This document shows positions 3,414 through 21,859 of a DNA stretch of 64,000 nucleotides, one piece after another. The position numbers were made by a program, and so were the translations under genes. Position 1 is the first letter of the stretch; each line of letters starts with the position of its first letter. The DNA comes from Caulobacter sp. UNC358MFTsu5.1 (GTDB lineage: Bacteria; Pseudomonadota; Alphaproteobacteria; Caulobacterales; Caulobacteraceae): positions 1 through 64,000 of the forward strand of contig NZ_JONW01000009.1 of NCBI RefSeq assembly GCF_000712075.1, given 5' to 3'. The notes under the pieces were generated by a model. The model ran no database searches. It was not told the origin of the DNA and saw only the letters and a program-made list of their open reading frames with translations.

Positions 3414-4112
3414 TTGCCCCGTCAGTTCCGACTGCCGCTGACCGCCCCGCCCTGCTGGGATCGGGAGTCGTTCGCGTCGTCGCCGACCAATCTCGAGGCG
3501 CTGGAGGGGCTGGACGCCTGGCCGGCCTGGCCCGACGGGCGGATGGCCCTGGTCGGGCCGGCGGGCACGGGCAAGTCGCACCTGGCGCGCGACTGGGCGG
3601 CGCGGACCGGGGCCGTGACCATCGAGGCGGCTTCCACGGGCAATAAGCCGCTGGACCTGGCCGCCCTGCGCGGCCGGCCGCTGCTGGTCGAGGACGCCGA
3701 CCGCCGGTCCGAGGGCGACCTGGTCGACGACGAGACCCTGTTCCACCTGATCAACATGGCCGGGGTCGACGGCGGCAGCCTGCTGCTGACCGGCCGCCTG
3801 GCCCCCGTGGCCTGGGAGGCCGCGGTGCCCGACCTGCGCTCGCGGCTGAACGCCCTGACCGTGGCCCGGGTCATGGAGCCCGACGACATCGTGCTGGAGG
3901 CCGTGCTGCGCCGCGCCTTCGAGGCGGCGGGCATCCGGCCGGCGGGCGACCTCTATCCCTACCTGATGGCCCGCCTGCCCCGCTCGGCGGCCGAGGTCCT
4001 GGCGGCGGTGGCGGCCCTGGACGAGGCGTCCATCGAGCAGGGACGCGAGGTGAACAAGGCGCTGGCCCTGTCGGTGCTGGATTTCGGCGGGGACGACGAC
4101 GGCGAGGACTGA
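3414..4112 (+). CDS. hdaA: DnaA-related replication regulator Hda/HdaA (232 aa)
   Basis: This is a short AAA+ protein homologous to the ATPase domain of DnaA but lacking its DNA-binding domain. In enterics and Caulobacter, Hda works with the DNA-bound sliding clamp to stimulate ATP hydrolysis by DnaA and so limit re-initiation. The N-terminal R-Q-F-R-L-P-L stretch is a plausible clamp-binding peptide of the QL[SP]LPL type. A Walker A motif, GPAGTGKSHLA, lies at about residues 47-57. A Walker-B-like LLVEDADR follows near residue 90. The C-terminal lid is an all-helical segment. The start used is TTG at 3414, which places the clamp-binding motif at the very N-terminus; no ATG precedes it in frame. 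It lies just upstream of ppk, the order expected in Caulobacter. Confidence 0.85.
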   Translation: MPRQFRLPLTAPPCWDRESFASSPTNLEALEGLDAWPAWPDGRMALVGPAGTGKSHLARDWAARTGAVTIEAASTGNKPLDLAALRGRPLLVEDADRRSEGDLVDDETLFHLINMAGVDGGSLLLTGRLAPVAWEAAVPDLRSRLNALTVARVMEPDDIVLEAVLRRAFEAAGIRPAGDLYPYLMARLPRSAAEVLAAVAALDEASIEQGREVNKALALSVLDFGGDDDGED

Positions 4113-16979: not shown

Positions 16980-17555
16980 ATGAAGATCAAGGTCGCCGTC
17001 CTGATCTCGGGCCGGGGCTCCAACATGGAGGCCCTGGTCCGGGCCGCCCAGGACCCCGCCTGCCCGTTCGAGATCGCCCTGGTGCTCTCCAACAAGCCGG
17101 AAGCCGGCGGCCTGGTCACCGCCGCCGCCGCCGGGATCGAGGCCCTGGCCGTCGACCAGCGCGACTTCGGCAAGGACCGCGAGGCCCACGAGCGCGCCAT
17201 CGACGCGGCCCTGCGCGACCGCGGGATCCAGGTCGTGGCCCTGGCCGGCTACATGCGCATCCTGACGCCGTTCCTGGTCGAGGCCTGGGAAGGCCGGATG
17301 CTGAACATCCACCCCTCCCTCCTGCCCGCCTATCCGGGCCTGGACACCCACGGCCGCGCCCTGGCCGCCGGCGAGGTCGAGGCCGGCTGCACGGTCCACC
17401 TGGTCACCGCCGGCGTCGACGAAGGCCCGGTCCTGGGCCAAGCCCGCGTGCCGATCCTGCCCGGCGACACCGAGCATATGCTGAGCGATCGTGTGCTGGA
17501 GCAGGAGCACCAGCTTTATCCGGCCACCCTGGCCGAGTTCGTCCGCGGGCTCTGA
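16980..17555 (+). CDS. purN: Phosphoribosylglycinamide formyltransferase (191 aa)
   Basis: PurN transfers a formyl group from 10-formyl-tetrahydrofolate to GAR, step three of purine synthesis. The phosphate-binding loop SGRGSNMEAL is at residues 10-19. The catalytic N-x-H element is MLNIHPSLLPAYPGLDTH (about residues 107-124). The conserved aspartate is in VTAGVDEGPVLGQA near residue 145. The length is usual for monomeric PurN. It is separated by 4 bases from purM. Unusually, a glycine riboswitch lies about 150 bases downstream on the same strand. Confidence 0.96.
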   Translation: MKIKVAVLISGRGSNMEALVRAAQDPACPFEIALVLSNKPEAGGLVTAAAAGIEALAVDQRDFGKDREAHERAIDAALRDRGIQVVALAGYMRILTPFLVEAWEGRMLNIHPSLLPAYPGLDTHGRALAAGEVEAGCTVHLVTAGVDEGPVLGQARVPILPGDTEHMLSDRVLEQEHQLYPATLAEFVRGL

Positions 17556-17670
17556 CGCCCCGACTTGCACCAGGGCGAACTTTCGCCCCATGGGACGCCG
17601 GGAAAAGCAGCGTGGGCTGCGTCCCGCGGCGGCGCCCCGCGGCAAGCCGAGGCGTCGGCGCTTCCCACAA

Positions 17671-17696
17671 TTGACGCAAAGCCTGTTGCGGATCCT
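17671..17696 (+). promoter_or_regulatory. Possible promoter for the riboswitch RNA
   Basis: TTGACG at 17671-17676 matches the Caulobacter housekeeping -35 box. A weak -10 candidate (GATCCT) lies 14 bases further on. A start near 17705 would fall exactly at the first base of aptamer 1, which supports the call, although the -10 match is poor. Confidence 0.45.
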
Positions 17697-17703
17697 CCTG
17701 TCG

Positions 17704-17903
17704 GGGCTCTCGCGGGAGAGATCGGGCCCGGCCCGGCGCTGAAGGCGAAACCACCCCGGAAACGCTCAAGCAGAAGGACCGCGACGGCCTCGAAACGCTG
17801 GAAAGCAGGGCGTGTCTGCGTGCGCCCTCGCCGAAGGAGCAAGGCGATCCCCGTCCATGGGGTGGTCGCTGAATCTCTCAGGCGCCAAGGACAGCGGGGG
17901 TGC
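17704..17903 (+). promoter_or_regulatory. Tandem glycine riboswitch (two aptamers)
   Basis: Aptamer 1 (about 17706-17786) has CGGGAGAGA, then GCTGAAGGCGAAACC, then GGAAACGCTCAAGCAGAAGGACCGC. Aptamer 2 (about 17790-17900) has CCGAAGGAGCAA, GAATCTCTCAGG and AAGGACAG. These are the hallmark conserved positions of cooperative glycine riboswitches, and both lie on the plus strand. Such elements normally control gcvT/gcvPH or glycine transport. Here no such gene follows; the next plus-strand genes are a TonB receptor and an M19 dipeptidase. Identification of the RNA class is strong; its target is unresolved. Confidence 0.9.
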
Positions 17904-17907
17904 GGAA

Positions 17908-17957
17908 GGCGGGCCATGGCGGTCCGCCACGACACCTCTTGGCTGCCGATGATCTGA
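17908..17957 (+). other. Riboswitch expression-platform hairpin with 13-codon ORF
   Basis: An 8-bp stem (17908-17915 with 17921-17928, one G-T pair) has a 5-base loop that contains an ATG (17916). A GGAAGG ribosome-binding tract lies six bases before it. The frame encodes 13 residues, MAVRHDTSWLPMI, and stops at 17957. The start codon inside the loop suggests translational control by the riboswitch. The peptide may be a leader peptide or the remnant of a lost gene. Confidence 0.5.
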
Positions 17958-18200
17958 AAACCCAGTCCCTACGACCCCGTTCAGAAAGCTTCGCTCGACC
18001 GTCACACGAAGACCTATGCGGTTTTCGTGAGATACCCATTTGATCTATAAATACTCGACATTTTCAATGTTTATAATTTATACATCAATGCGCATCCTCT
18101 GAACTTAAGTATATTTTGTCGTCGAAAGCAGCTTTTCTGAATTTACCGCGATAGACCAACCGTCGAGCTTGTCCCTAGTCAAAAATGATTGGGGATAGTC

Positions 18201-20585
18201 ATGACGAACACGCGCCTTTCGCCGGCCTCGGGCCGGTTCCGAGCCCTGCTGCTCGCCGCTTCGATCCTGGGGGGCGCGACGCCCGCCCTGGCCCAGGAGG
18301 CCGACAAGGCCTCGACCGTCGATGAACTGGTGGTCACCGGGGCCCGCGTTTCCGAAGCCAGCGTCGCCATCGGCACCGACCACGCCACCGCCACGGTTTC
18401 GATCACCCGCGAGGCGCTGCTGTCGGCCCCGGCCGGCATCACCGGCCTGAAGATGCTGGAGAGCCTGCCGGGCTTCAACGTCCAGGCCAACGACGCCCTG
18501 GGCATGTACGAGTTCGGCAATTCGGTCTCGGTGCGGGCCTTCAACTTCCAGCAGATCGGCTTCCTGCTCGACAACATCCCGATGGGCCGCAGCGACCAGT
18601 TCGGCGGCAGCCCGATCTATCGCTATGTCGACAACGAGAACCTGCTGCGCGTCACCGCCTCGGCCGGGGCCGGCGACGTCTCCCTGCCCAGCTACGCCTC
18701 GCTGGGCCCGATCGTCGACTACTTCACCCAGAAGCCGTCCGAGACCGCCGGCGGTTCGCTCAGCCAGACCCTGGGCAGCGACAGCCTGCGCCGCACCTTC
18801 CTGCGCCTGGAGACCGGCGAGCACGCCGGCTTCTCGGCCTATGTCTCGGGCTCGATCATCAAGGGCGACCTGTGGCGCGGCCCGGGCACGATCGATCGCA
18901 AGCACTACGAGGGCAAGATCAACTACGCCCTGCCCAACGGCGGGAACATCAGCTTCCAGACCGTGCACAACGACTATTTCGACTACGATAGCCCGTCGAT
19001 CACCAAGGCCCAGTACGCCGGCACGGCGGGCGACGTGTTCGGCCGCAAGGGACGCAGCTTCGCCTATCTGGGCAATGTGCCGCTCTCGACGCCGTTCGGC
19101 ACGGCGGCCACGGATTCCAGCCTGCCCCAGACCACGGCCGGGGTGCCCTACTCCAACGCCAACTACGCCCAGTACTACAAGTTCGCGGTCAACAGCCGGC
19201 AGGACCACCTCTACGGCCTGACCCTGAACACGCCGATCACCGACGCGATCGACGTCACCGCCACGGGCTATTACGAGGACAAGGAAGGCTACGGCGTCTC
19301 GCCCGAGGCCTACGCCACCTCGCTGGCCAGCTACAACGCCGAGCGGCTGATCGTGGCCGGCCTGACCGCGCCCAAGGGCCTGCAGTACGGCCTTTCGGGC
19401 ATCGACGGCACCCGCAAGGGCGTGACCGGCAAGGTCGCCTGGCGCGCCGGCTTCAACAAGTTCGAGGCGGGCGTCTGGCTCGAGGACGACGACTATCACC
19501 GCACCCAGGCGCGCTACAACGTGCAGGACGGCAACCCGGACGGCGCGCCGCTGTTCAACGAGCCCGTCCACCTGCAGCGCAACTACGTCTCGACCCGCGA
19601 GACCACCCAGCTGTTCCTGAAGGACACGCTGAGCCTGGTCGACGACAAGCTGAAGGTCGAGCTGGGCTTCAAGGCCACCGACATCGACTACAAGATCACC
19701 GGCTATCGCAATCCGGGCGACTACATCGCCCAGCGCAAGCCGACCCTGACGGCCAAATGGAAGGACGATTTCCTGCCGCAGGTCGGCTTCGTCTACGACA
19801 TCAACAGCCGTGACCAGATCTTCTCGTCCTATTCGGAGAACATGGCCCTGCCCCGCGGCGCCGACGACGTGTTCTCGGCCGCCAGCCCGACGGTGGTCGC
19901 GCCCAAGCCGGAGACCTCCAAGAACCTGGAACTGGGCTATCGCGCCAACCGCCAGACCTTCAACGCCTCGATCGTGGCCTACAAGACGGAGTTCAAGAAC
20001 CGTCTGCAGCAGTTCAACACCGAGGTGCCGGGCGGCGGCGGCACGATCGAGAGCTTCTACCAGAACGTCGGCGCGGTCGAAGCGCAGGGCGTGGAGTTCA
20101 GCGGCCAATGGAAGCCGGCGCTGCTGGACGGCAAGATCTTCTTCAACGCCAACGTCTCGTACAACAAGTCGGAGTTCCAGGACGACGTCCCGGGCTACCG
20201 CGCCAGCGCCACGGCCGCGCCGATCACCCTGCTGACCAAGGGCAAGTCGGTGCCCGACTTCCCCGAATGGCTGTTCCAGGGCGGGGTGACGGTCCAGCCG
20301 ACCGACGGCGTGGTGTTCAACCTCTCGGCCCGCCACATCGACGACCGCTTCACCAACTTCGTCAACAACGAGACCACCGGCGGCTACACGATCTGGAACG
20401 CCTATCTGGATCTCGGCGACGGTTTCGGGGCCGGGCCGTTCGAGCAGGTCAAGGCGCGGGTCAATGTCGATAACATCTTCGACAAGGACTATCTGGGCAC
20501 GATCAGCACCACGGTGAACACCCCGGCCAGCTTCCGGCCCGGCTCGCACCGCACGATCCAGTTCACCCTCTCCGCCGACTTCTAG
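18201..20585 (+). CDS. TonB-dependent receptor downstream of glycine riboswitch (794 aa)
   Basis: The signal peptide ends at PALAQ (about residue 29 from ATG 18201), followed by a TonB box VDELVVTGARVSE and a plug domain. The plug has the VRAFNFQQIGFLLDNIPMGRSDQF element near residues 110-130. The barrel runs to the aromatic end FTLSADF. Its plug resembles the CirA/FepA-like superfamily in general form, but substrate cannot be read from sequence. The ATG at 18201 has a GGGGAT tract five bases upstream; an in-frame TTG at 18189 would merely extend it. A 13-bp hairpin separates it from the M19 dipeptidase gene. With the riboswitch upstream and a dipeptidase downstream, peptide uptake is a reasonable hypothesis. 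Confidence 0.88.
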   Translation: MTNTRLSPASGRFRALLLAASILGGATPALAQEADKASTVDELVVTGARVSEASVAIGTDHATATVSITREALLSAPAGITGLKMLESLPGFNVQANDALGMYEFGNSVSVRAFNFQQIGFLLDNIPMGRSDQFGGSPIYRYVDNENLLRVTASAGAGDVSLPSYASLGPIVDYFTQKPSETAGGSLSQTLGSDSLRRTFLRLETGEHAGFSAYVSGSIIKGDLWRGPGTIDRKHYEGKINYALPNGGNISFQTVHNDYFDYDSPSITKAQYAGTAGDVFGRKGRSFAYLGNVPLSTPFGTAATDSSLPQTTAGVPYSNANYAQYYKFAVNSRQDHLYGLTLNTPITDAIDVTATGYYEDKEGYGVSPEAYATSLASYNAERLIVAGLTAPKGLQYGLSGIDGTRKGVTGKVAWRAGFNKFEAGVWLEDDDYHRTQARYNVQDGNPDGAPLFNEPVHLQRNYVSTRETTQLFLKDTLSLVDDKLKVELGFKATDIDYKITGYRNPGDYIAQRKPTLTAKWKDDFLPQVGFVYDINSRDQIFSSYSENMALPRGADDVFSAASPTVVAPKPETSKNLELGYRANRQTFNASIVAYKTEFKNRLQQFNTEVPGGGGTIESFYQNVGAVEAQGVEFSGQWKPALLDGKIFFNANVSYNKSEFQDDVPGYRASATAAPITLLTKGKSVPDFPEWLFQGGVTVQPTDGVVFNLSARHIDDRFTNFVNNETTGGYTIWNAYLDLGDGFGAGPFEQVKARVNVDNIFDKDYLGTISTTVNTPASFRPGSHRTIQFTLSADF

Positions 20586-20641: not shown

Positions 20642-21859
20642 ATGACCCGTCCCCTGCTCCTGGCCGCCGTTTCGGCCCTTGCCTTCGCCACCGCCTCGCA
20701 AGCGGCCGAGACCGCCGCTTCGGCCCGCAAGATCCACGAGGGCCTGCTGACCCTCGACACCCACCTGGACACCCCGGCCAATTTCGGCCGGCCCGGCTGG
20801 GACATCCTCGACCGCCACGACGCGGCCAAGGACGGCTCGCAGATCGACTATCCGCGCATGGTCGAGGGCGGCCTCGACGGCGGCTTCTTCGCTATCTACA
20901 CGCCCCAGGGGCTGCGCACGCCCGAGGCCACCCGGGCCGCCCGCGACGGCGCCCTGATCCGCGGCGTCGAGATCCGCGAGATGGTCGCCAAGCACGGCGA
21001 CAAGTTCGGCCTGGCCCTGAAGGCCGACGACGCCGCCGTGATCGCCGCCCAGGGCAAGCGCGTGGTCTTCATGAGCGTCGAGAACAGCTATCCGATGGAC
21101 GGCGACGTCACCCTGCTGTCCAGCTTCTATGCGATGGGGGTGCGGATTTCGGGTCTCGCGCACTTCAAGAACAACGACATGGCCGACAGCGCCACCGACA
21201 AGCCCGAATGGCATGGCCTGTCGCCGCTGGGGAAGTCGTTCGTGGCCGAGGCCAACCGGCTGGGCGTGGTGCTGGACGGTTCGCACTCGTCCGACGAGGT
21301 GCTGGACCAACTGATCGCCCTGTCCAAGACCCCGGTGATCCTGACCCATTCGGGCTGCAAGGCGGTGTTCGACCACCCGCGCAACGTCGACGACGCCCGC
21401 ATCAAGGCCCTGGCCGACAGCGGCGGCGTGATCCAGGTCGACGCCTATTCCAGCTACCTGATCGACACGCCCAAGAATCCCGAGCGCGAAGCCGCCATGG
21501 CCGCCCTGATGGCCAAGGTCGGGGCGCGCAGCAAGATGACCGAGGAACAGCGCGCCGCCTTCATGGCCGAGCGCAACGCCATCGACGCCAAGTGGCCGGT
21601 GACCAAGGCGACTTTCCAGGACTTCATGAACCACCTCAACCACGCCCTGAAGGTGGCCGGGGTCGATCACGTGGGCATCGGCATCGATTTCGACGGCGGC
21701 GGCGGCGTGACCGGCTTGAACGACGCTTCCGACTACTGGAAGATCTCCCAGGCGCTGCTGGCCGAGGGCTACACCAAGGCCGACCTGGAGAAGATCTGGA
21801 GCGGCAACGTCCTGCGCCTGCTGCGCGCGGCCGAGGCGGCCAAGGCGCCGGCGGCCTAG
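20642..21859 (+). CDS. Exported membrane dipeptidase, family M19 (405 aa)
   Basis: This is a renal-dipeptidase-type zinc enzyme that hydrolyses dipeptides, including in characterised relatives Cys-Gly and D-amino-acid-containing pairs. A cleavable signal peptide (ending ASQAAE, about residue 22) puts it in the periplasm. Zinc ligands are visible: LDTHLDTP (H and D, near residue 38), SVENSYP (glutamate bridging both metals, near 145), DGSHSSDEVL and THSGCKAVFDHPRN (histidines near 215 and 237), and GIGIDFDGG (aspartate near 345). The length is typical. It lies behind a TonB receptor and a hairpin on the same strand, so the pair may import and cut small peptides. Confidence 0.93.
   Translation: MTRPLLLAAVSALAFATASQAAETAASARKIHEGLLTLDTHLDTPANFGRPGWDILDRHDAAKDGSQIDYPRMVEGGLDGGFFAIYTPQGLRTPEATRAARDGALIRGVEIREMVAKHGDKFGLALKADDAAVIAAQGKRVVFMSVENSYPMDGDVTLLSSFYAMGVRISGLAHFKNNDMADSATDKPEWHGLSPLGKSFVAEANRLGVVLDGSHSSDEVLDQLIALSKTPVILTHSGCKAVFDHPRNVDDARIKALADSGGVIQVDAYSSYLIDTPKNPEREAAMAALMAKVGARSKMTEEQRAAFMAERNAIDAKWPVTKATFQDFMNHLNHALKVAGVDHVGIGIDFDGGGGVTGLNDASDYWKISQALLAEGYTKADLEKIWSGNVLRLLRAAEAAKAPAA

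Follow-up and report, generated by a model that had tools for sequence, protein, structure and literature searches.

Upstream of the genes for a TonB-dependent receptor and a dipeptidase, a tandem glycine riboswitch lies in the window analysed here, by which we mean the whole 64,000-nucleotide stretch of Caulobacter sp. UNC358MFTsu5.1 DNA (positions 1 to 64,000 of contig NZ_JONW01000009.1). Judging from sequence comparisons, we consider it likely that this element is a functional riboswitch leading a receptor-dipeptidase operon from a promoter of its own, that it belongs to a riboswitch lineage recruited to receptors within the Caulobacteraceae, and that it would switch between the P1 helix of the second aptamer and an alternative downstream helix (H2). 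The features concerned are collected in Table 1.

Table 1. Features of the riboswitch, leader and neighbouring genes in the window
Feature	Position	Strand	Evidence
purN, upstream neighbour, outside the unit	16980..17555	+	PF00551
TTGACGC, -35-like box	17671..17677	+	43 nt 5' of aptamer-1 GGGAGA
Glycine aptamer 1 (RF00504), class A/C variant	17703..17787	+	53.9 bits, E 3.9e-11 (96-base search)
Glycine aptamer 2 (RF00504)	17788..17904	+	56.6 bits, gathering score 32
Predicted expression platform: 3' strand of aptamer-2 P1 with GGGGGTG, hairpin H1, CACCTCTTGGCTG	17890..17945	+	covariation, MFE
Hairpin H1, 8 bp, ATG in loop (17916-17920)	17908-17928	+	sequence
13-codon frame ATG..TGA MAVRHDTSWLPMI, considered no gene	17916..17957	+	ATG in 5/23 class A loci
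CACCTCTTGGCTG, can pair with CAGCGGGGGTG to form alternative helix H2	17933-17945	+	predicted pairing
AT-rich leader, riboswitch to receptor	17958..18188	+	comparison by eye
TonB-dependent receptor, class A	18189..20585	+	PF00593 E 5.4e-38; PF07715 23.8 bits
M19 (renal-dipeptidase-type) dipeptidase, 56 nt 3' of receptor	20642..21859	+	PF01244 E 8.1e-93

The original prediction placed two glycine aptamers on the plus strand, and a covariance-model check with RF00504 bears this out: at 53.9 and 56.6 bits both exceed the gathering score of 32, and the two matches adjoin, giving a tandem with a short linker as in cooperative switches. (The scan of the whole window lists aptamer 2 alone; the aptamer-1 match comes from a scan of positions 17695-17790 by themselves.) It was also correct that gcvT, gcvP, glyA and a symporter gene are absent downstream; the next genes encode the receptor and the M19 dipeptidase, and their Pfam families (PF00593/PF07715 and PF01244) fall outside the known glycine-riboswitch regulon of glycine cleavage, glycine transport, and serine/glycine metabolism. 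The description of the element as an orphan does not hold, as the gcvT of the host has a separate tandem riboswitch (G000:C5:832756-832949).

The linkage between riboswitch and receptor was seen repeatedly. Our first survey comprised 51 riboswitch stretches from 37 same-genus genomes. Close relatives might have carried a gcv gene under this very riboswitch, which, together with transcripts that end before 18000, had been put forward as a mark of a relic; instead, the gcv-type genes lie at another riboswitch site, in 37 of the 51 stretches, where the downstream cluster is common to all 37 (the gcvT of this cluster in L250 is PF01571). The other 14 stretches lead into TonB receptors, nine of them orthologues of the window receptor (class A) and five a different receptor with an S9-family peptidase gene behind it (class B). 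Class A now amounts to 23 distinct loci: 10 from the first set (the window included), 11 from a second genome set, and L161 and L166 from named records. In the comparison of the regions downstream of purN, which the original prediction recommended, the riboswitch stays with the receptor and not with purN, and the upstream neighbours of class A loci without purMN are of several kinds. A tree of 67 receptors places all riboswitch loci in one crown of 28 rows (SH-aLRT 99), of which 23 have the riboswitch, 4 lack it, and 1 is untestable because its contig begins too near the receptor. Class A receptors with the riboswitch are down to 76% identical to the window receptor. Riboswitch presence needs four changes on this tree, three of them forced by starred branches, and the simplest story would be one gain and a few losses. 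The tree omits L250, whose riboswitch is that of gcvT, and identical proteins were entered once; L206 and L210 had short receptor hits. We also observed, at L107 and L108 (G031:C20:329392-332389), adjoining partial receptor matches in opposite orientation whose matched parts are stop-free. L161 (JAEKLZ010000319.1), which has Caulobacter-type purMN, riboswitch, receptor, and dipeptidase, comes from a metagenome bin named Inquilinus limosus and was probably misbinned.

The riboswitches themselves form a distinct lineage. In a FastTree phylogeny of 109 tandem riboswitches, the 23 class A elements make up one clade (support 0.976), which is joined by two class C elements (support 0.949; see below). 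Together these stand apart from the gcvT and class B riboswitches, the latter not being one clade. One pair in aptamer 1 is U-A in 25 of 25 class A and C elements and C-G in 83 of the 84 others, the remaining one being unscored. (The gcvT loci L042 and L066, for which one aptamer was reported in the first search, were left out of the tree and these counts.) Such a two-sided change from C-G to U-A, present in every A/C element, is as expected if aptamer 1 has been selected to fold. The linkage to the receptor, the separate clade, and the two further receptor types described next lend comparative support to the suggestion, made in the original prediction, that the riboswitch may control peptide import as a new regulon class.

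Receptor B matches at E<=1e-250 were found in 25 of 390 family genomes. All 23 orthologues with at least 68% identity, from three genera, have a tandem glycine riboswitch and a downstream S9-family gene, and the two matches at 49% identity have neither; in G110, a further copy, which has a riboswitch, is truncated by the end of its contig. The class B riboswitches were found by sequence pattern, and RF00504 matches at many of these sites among the matches listed. A class-level search gave receptor B in 0 of 289 genomes at E<=1e-200, a set that has no recognised B carrier and so shows little. Receptor C is represented by two loci in genus g30, each with a tandem glycine riboswitch and a downstream gene of the penicillin-amidase family (the Pfam assignment was made at L258). 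A fourth TonB receptor type (class D; L260, G073) stands behind a tandem element just 5' of gcvT, with an aptamer 2 that scores 32.4 bits against the threshold of 32. Because aptamer 2 is so near the threshold and the element is possibly a gcvT leader that was duplicated and is decaying, we did not count class D. In L260 (G073:C158:4800-10500), the two tandem riboswitches lie about 3.5 kb apart, at about 351-561 (receptor) and 3881-4091 (gcvT). Among receptors A, B, C, and D, similarity is only weak and local, and it is highest toward the N terminus.

Across the family, 372 of the 390 genomes have a glycine riboswitch match under strict filters. In this bulk search, genomes with at least three matches were followed, so single-match receptor riboswitches in two-match genomes may be missed. 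A loose pattern search (up to 3 mismatches), which served to choose sites, gave hits in at least 290 of the 390 genomes, gcvT riboswitches included. The genus contributed 38 additional genomes: 34 had individual searches, their ordinary-looking gcvT tandem sites being mostly left out of the fetch, and four (G278, G279, G283, and G291) were covered by the bulk search only. Among the followed-up genomes with at least three matches, a serine dehydratase gene stands behind a riboswitch in G305 and G406. At these loci (L282, G305:C89:3800-9800; L280, G406:C1:2571700-2578000) the second aptamer is short, and in L282 glyA comes next. One genome (G212; L261 and L262) has two gcvT genes, each with its own tandem glycine riboswitch, and L283 (G350:C18:145500-151400) contains a single, weaker glycine aptamer (39.5 bits, at about 468-555 of the reversed stretch) that lies some 2 kb 5' of the gcvT riboswitch and is followed by no clear gene.

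Upstream of the aptamers we found a TTGAC box at a fixed distance. Measured from the GGRAGA motif of aptamer 1, the box lies 42-44 nt 5' in 43 of 48 receptor-linked elements (22 of 23 in class A, 19 of 23 in class B, and both in class C) and 42-45 nt 5' in 49 of 50 gcvT elements (50 of the 60 gcvT elements were taken for this count). Shuffled upstream stretches have it in 1.7-2.3% of cases (4% for the two class C elements). Given this fixed distance, promoter and riboswitch look like one cassette, in which the -35-like box would mark the promoter. A search of positions 17550-18230 for a sigma-70-consensus promoter gave no match, although consensus scans may miss Caulobacter promoters. For intrinsic terminators, the same interval gave a single terminator-like match, which is on the minus strand; the plus strand gave none.

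Downstream of the aptamers, the 8-bp hairpin with an ATG in its loop, the GGAAGG 5' of it, and the 13-codon frame named in the original prediction are all present as sequence. The hairpin (H1) covaries. In 22 of the 23 class A sequences (L248 was left out), 95.5% of 176 cells are paired and two-sided changes are seen in 10 cells, values that 0 of 500 shuffles reach; these changes fall at 3 of the 8 pairs, a number that 90 of 500 shuffles also attain, and a single pair is disrupted in 8 of the 22 sequences. The reading frame behaves differently: while the hairpin covaries, its ATG is present in 5 of the 23 class A loci, and the remaining loci keep the stem with other letters in the loop. We rejected the frame as a leader peptide on this count, and the best reading is that it spans the hairpin by chance.

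In the minimum-free-energy (MFE) structure predicted for the window leader, H2 replaces the P1 helix of aptamer 2, and the G-run is paired downstream in the MFE structures of all 25 class A and C platforms. Set against shuffled downstream segments, 24 of 25 A/C loci have an H2 below the shuffle mean, but p<0.05 is reached in 7 of 25 only (1 of 35 for gcvT), which we regard as weak support for this modelled helix. We give no column-by-column count for H2, because the G-run slips between subclades. Folding of the whole leader showed no clear gain in stability over shuffles (z -0.65). A Rho-type bias of C over G 3' of the platform (mean C 0.245, G 0.188 in 25 loci) is seen in some loci and absent in others, and we make no claim of it.

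These observations lead us to propose the following mechanism. The tandem riboswitch, with its own promoter, would form the 5' leader of the receptor-dipeptidase operon, transcription presumably continuing through the receptor gene. Glycine bound in both aptamers would stabilise aptamer-2 P1; without glycine, the 3' strand of P1 would be taken by the downstream segment to give H2, which would enclose H1. The switch would set the amount of receptor-dipeptidase mRNA or protein. The receptor probably imports peptides or peptide-like compounds, and the dipeptidase would cut these in the periplasm to yield amino acids, including glycine. The direction of control is less easily judged. When access to the Shine-Dalgarno site was modelled with P1 forced or forbidden, the gcvT positive control was mixed (18 lower and 11 higher of 33 scored), as was class B (3 lower and 3 higher of 20 scored, with 3 of 23 unscored), and we therefore claim no switching direction from this modelling; in class A, the receptor Shine-Dalgarno site is absent from the platform. 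We lean ever so slightly toward OFF in glycine, since the glycine riboswitches that precede transport genes elsewhere are considered to be OFF switches. The platform, being ordered as in gcvT leaders, would instead speak for ON.

The receptor has a clear barrel match (PF00593) and a plug match (PF07715) slightly below the cut-off, at 23.8 against 23.9 bits; its translation may in fact begin with the ATG at 18201. When the dipeptidase was aligned with its solved relatives 2rag and 3id7, the HxD, E, H, and H positions matched, and these we take to be the metal ligands. By eye, its N terminus appears signal-peptide-like. M19 enzymes cut Xaa-Gly peptides, such as Cys-Gly, and from this neighbouring gene we infer that the cargo of the receptor may be peptides or peptide-like compounds. 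An M19 gene lies 3' of the receptor at 9 of 13 named riboswitch loci and at 13 of 41 other named loci (some stretches being short), and 5 of the latter 13 are 30-33% identical. At 8 of the 21 class A loci from the genome sets, no M19 gene is present in the fetched stretch. Receptor and M19 gene are likewise paired in records of Pseudomonas, Sphingomonas, and Brevundimonas, and no riboswitch was found in these. Since riboswitch-free records of other genera have it, the pair looks like an older functional unit, to which, on comparative grounds, the riboswitch looks like a later addition in Caulobacter. With the pair being old, glycine control of the uptake of peptides or peptide-like compounds is the likeliest reading. 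Between riboswitch and receptor, class A loci have a spacer of about 285 nt. It includes sequence blocks such as TGTTCATAA and CTGAATTTACC, found at 18040-18150 in the window and in class A relatives; in some loci, TGTTCATAA is a GTTCA-N5-TGAAC palindrome.

This long spacer has to be weighed in favour of the chief alternative, in which the riboswitch produces a short glycine-responsive transcript of its own (an attenuated or small RNA) while a separate promoter, within the AT-rich leader at about 17990-18150, drives the receptor. Such leader blocks point the same way, as they are present also in some receptor orthologues without a riboswitch. Because they are kept there, a second promoter is possible, and the AT-rich leader may contain one; the blocks could possibly serve as an operator, a promoter, or a small-RNA site. 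We nevertheless think it unlikely that the riboswitch and the receptor are transcribed separately. Class B riboswitches end 68-141 nt from the receptor start, and the riboswitch stays with the receptor while the upstream genes vary. Moreover, the leader has neither a sigma-70-consensus promoter, within the reach of scans that may overlook Caulobacter promoters, nor a plus-strand terminator.

It seems to us very improbable that the element is a functionless relic, that is, a gcvT leader left after loss or replacement of its gene, with the 13-codon frame as a remnant. The order of its platform (P1 strand, hairpin, complementary segment) does resemble that of gcvT leaders. However, gcvT is present with its own riboswitch in the same genome and the frame is not conserved, and the related suggestion of the original prediction, that a replaced gene had left a leader ORF behind, lacks support on the same two points. 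The element is also kept in 23 loci with covariation and a lineage-specific compensatory pair, at receptors of down to 76% identity. As glycine is a purine precursor, one might ask whether the riboswitch instead serves purMN or has a 3' untranslated region role behind purN, e.g., as a glycine-sensing end of the purine transcript. At 5 of the first 10 class A loci it does lie just 3' of purN and in the same direction. No purMN occurs in the 14-kb stretch at the other 5, however, and none was seen in the stretch examined at 8 of 13 named riboswitch loci (11 of these 13 apparently being loci already counted); a purMN link was rejected on these counts. The riboswitch has, in addition, its own TTGAC box, and we regard a role in purine transcription as barely credible.

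The reading that we prefer, a riboswitch leading the receptor-dipeptidase operon, has parallels and points of difference in several known systems. The gcvT tandem riboswitch (RF00504) is like the class A element in its two aptamers, their order, the TTGAC distance, and a similar platform order. Class A differs from it in having an outer-membrane receptor and a dipeptidase downstream, in the U-A pair, and in having no receptor Shine-Dalgarno site by the platform. Riboswitch-controlled glycine transporters, as in the Vibrio and Streptococcus cases, lie in the inner membrane, whereas the window has a TonB-dependent receptor of the outer membrane, accompanied by a peptidase; what they share is that a glycine riboswitch precedes a gene for uptake. 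The serine dehydratase riboswitches of G305 and G406 resemble the window element in being a second glycine riboswitch besides that of gcvT, and differ in serving serine metabolism. As far as the accessible text of a 2013 survey goes, glycine riboswitches fall into the categories of glycine metabolism, glycine transporters, and serine metabolism, and the sdaA context is already in print there (PMC3766115). Riboswitches for cobalamin and TPP are likewise found before genes of outer-membrane receptors (btuB homologues; PMC2211319); their ligand is a vitamin, taken as the cargo of the receptor, whereas in the window it is glycine, which the cargo may yield on digestion. Within the accessible text of open-licence papers, supplementary gene tables being outside this scope, we found no report of a glycine riboswitch on a TonB receptor (papers including PMC3766115, PMC2211319, PMC6944388, PMC5756330, PMC9549626, and PMC12452182).

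Taken for the family as a whole, we favour, somewhat more cautiously, the view that the Caulobacteraceae have a glycine-riboswitch regulon for outer-membrane uptake. A portable cassette of promoter and tandem riboswitch would have been placed on at least three types of TonB receptor operon (with an M19 dipeptidase, an S9 peptidase, or a penicillin-amidase-type hydrolase), and glycine released by digestion of the cargo would feed back on import. To sense a digestion product rather than the cargo would differ in logic from the cobalamin and TPP cases. Glycine sensors before several receptors take these riboswitches beyond inner metabolism, to the outer membrane, and a change of riboswitch regulon can be traced here through the repeated recruitment and the separate lineage. 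Many TonB-dependent receptors have unknown cargo, and a glycine sensor before several of them offers a testable clue, namely, peptides or conjugates that yield glycine. The comparisons suggest that Caulobacter and some of its relatives may tune the uptake of nutrients across the outer membrane to the level of glycine.
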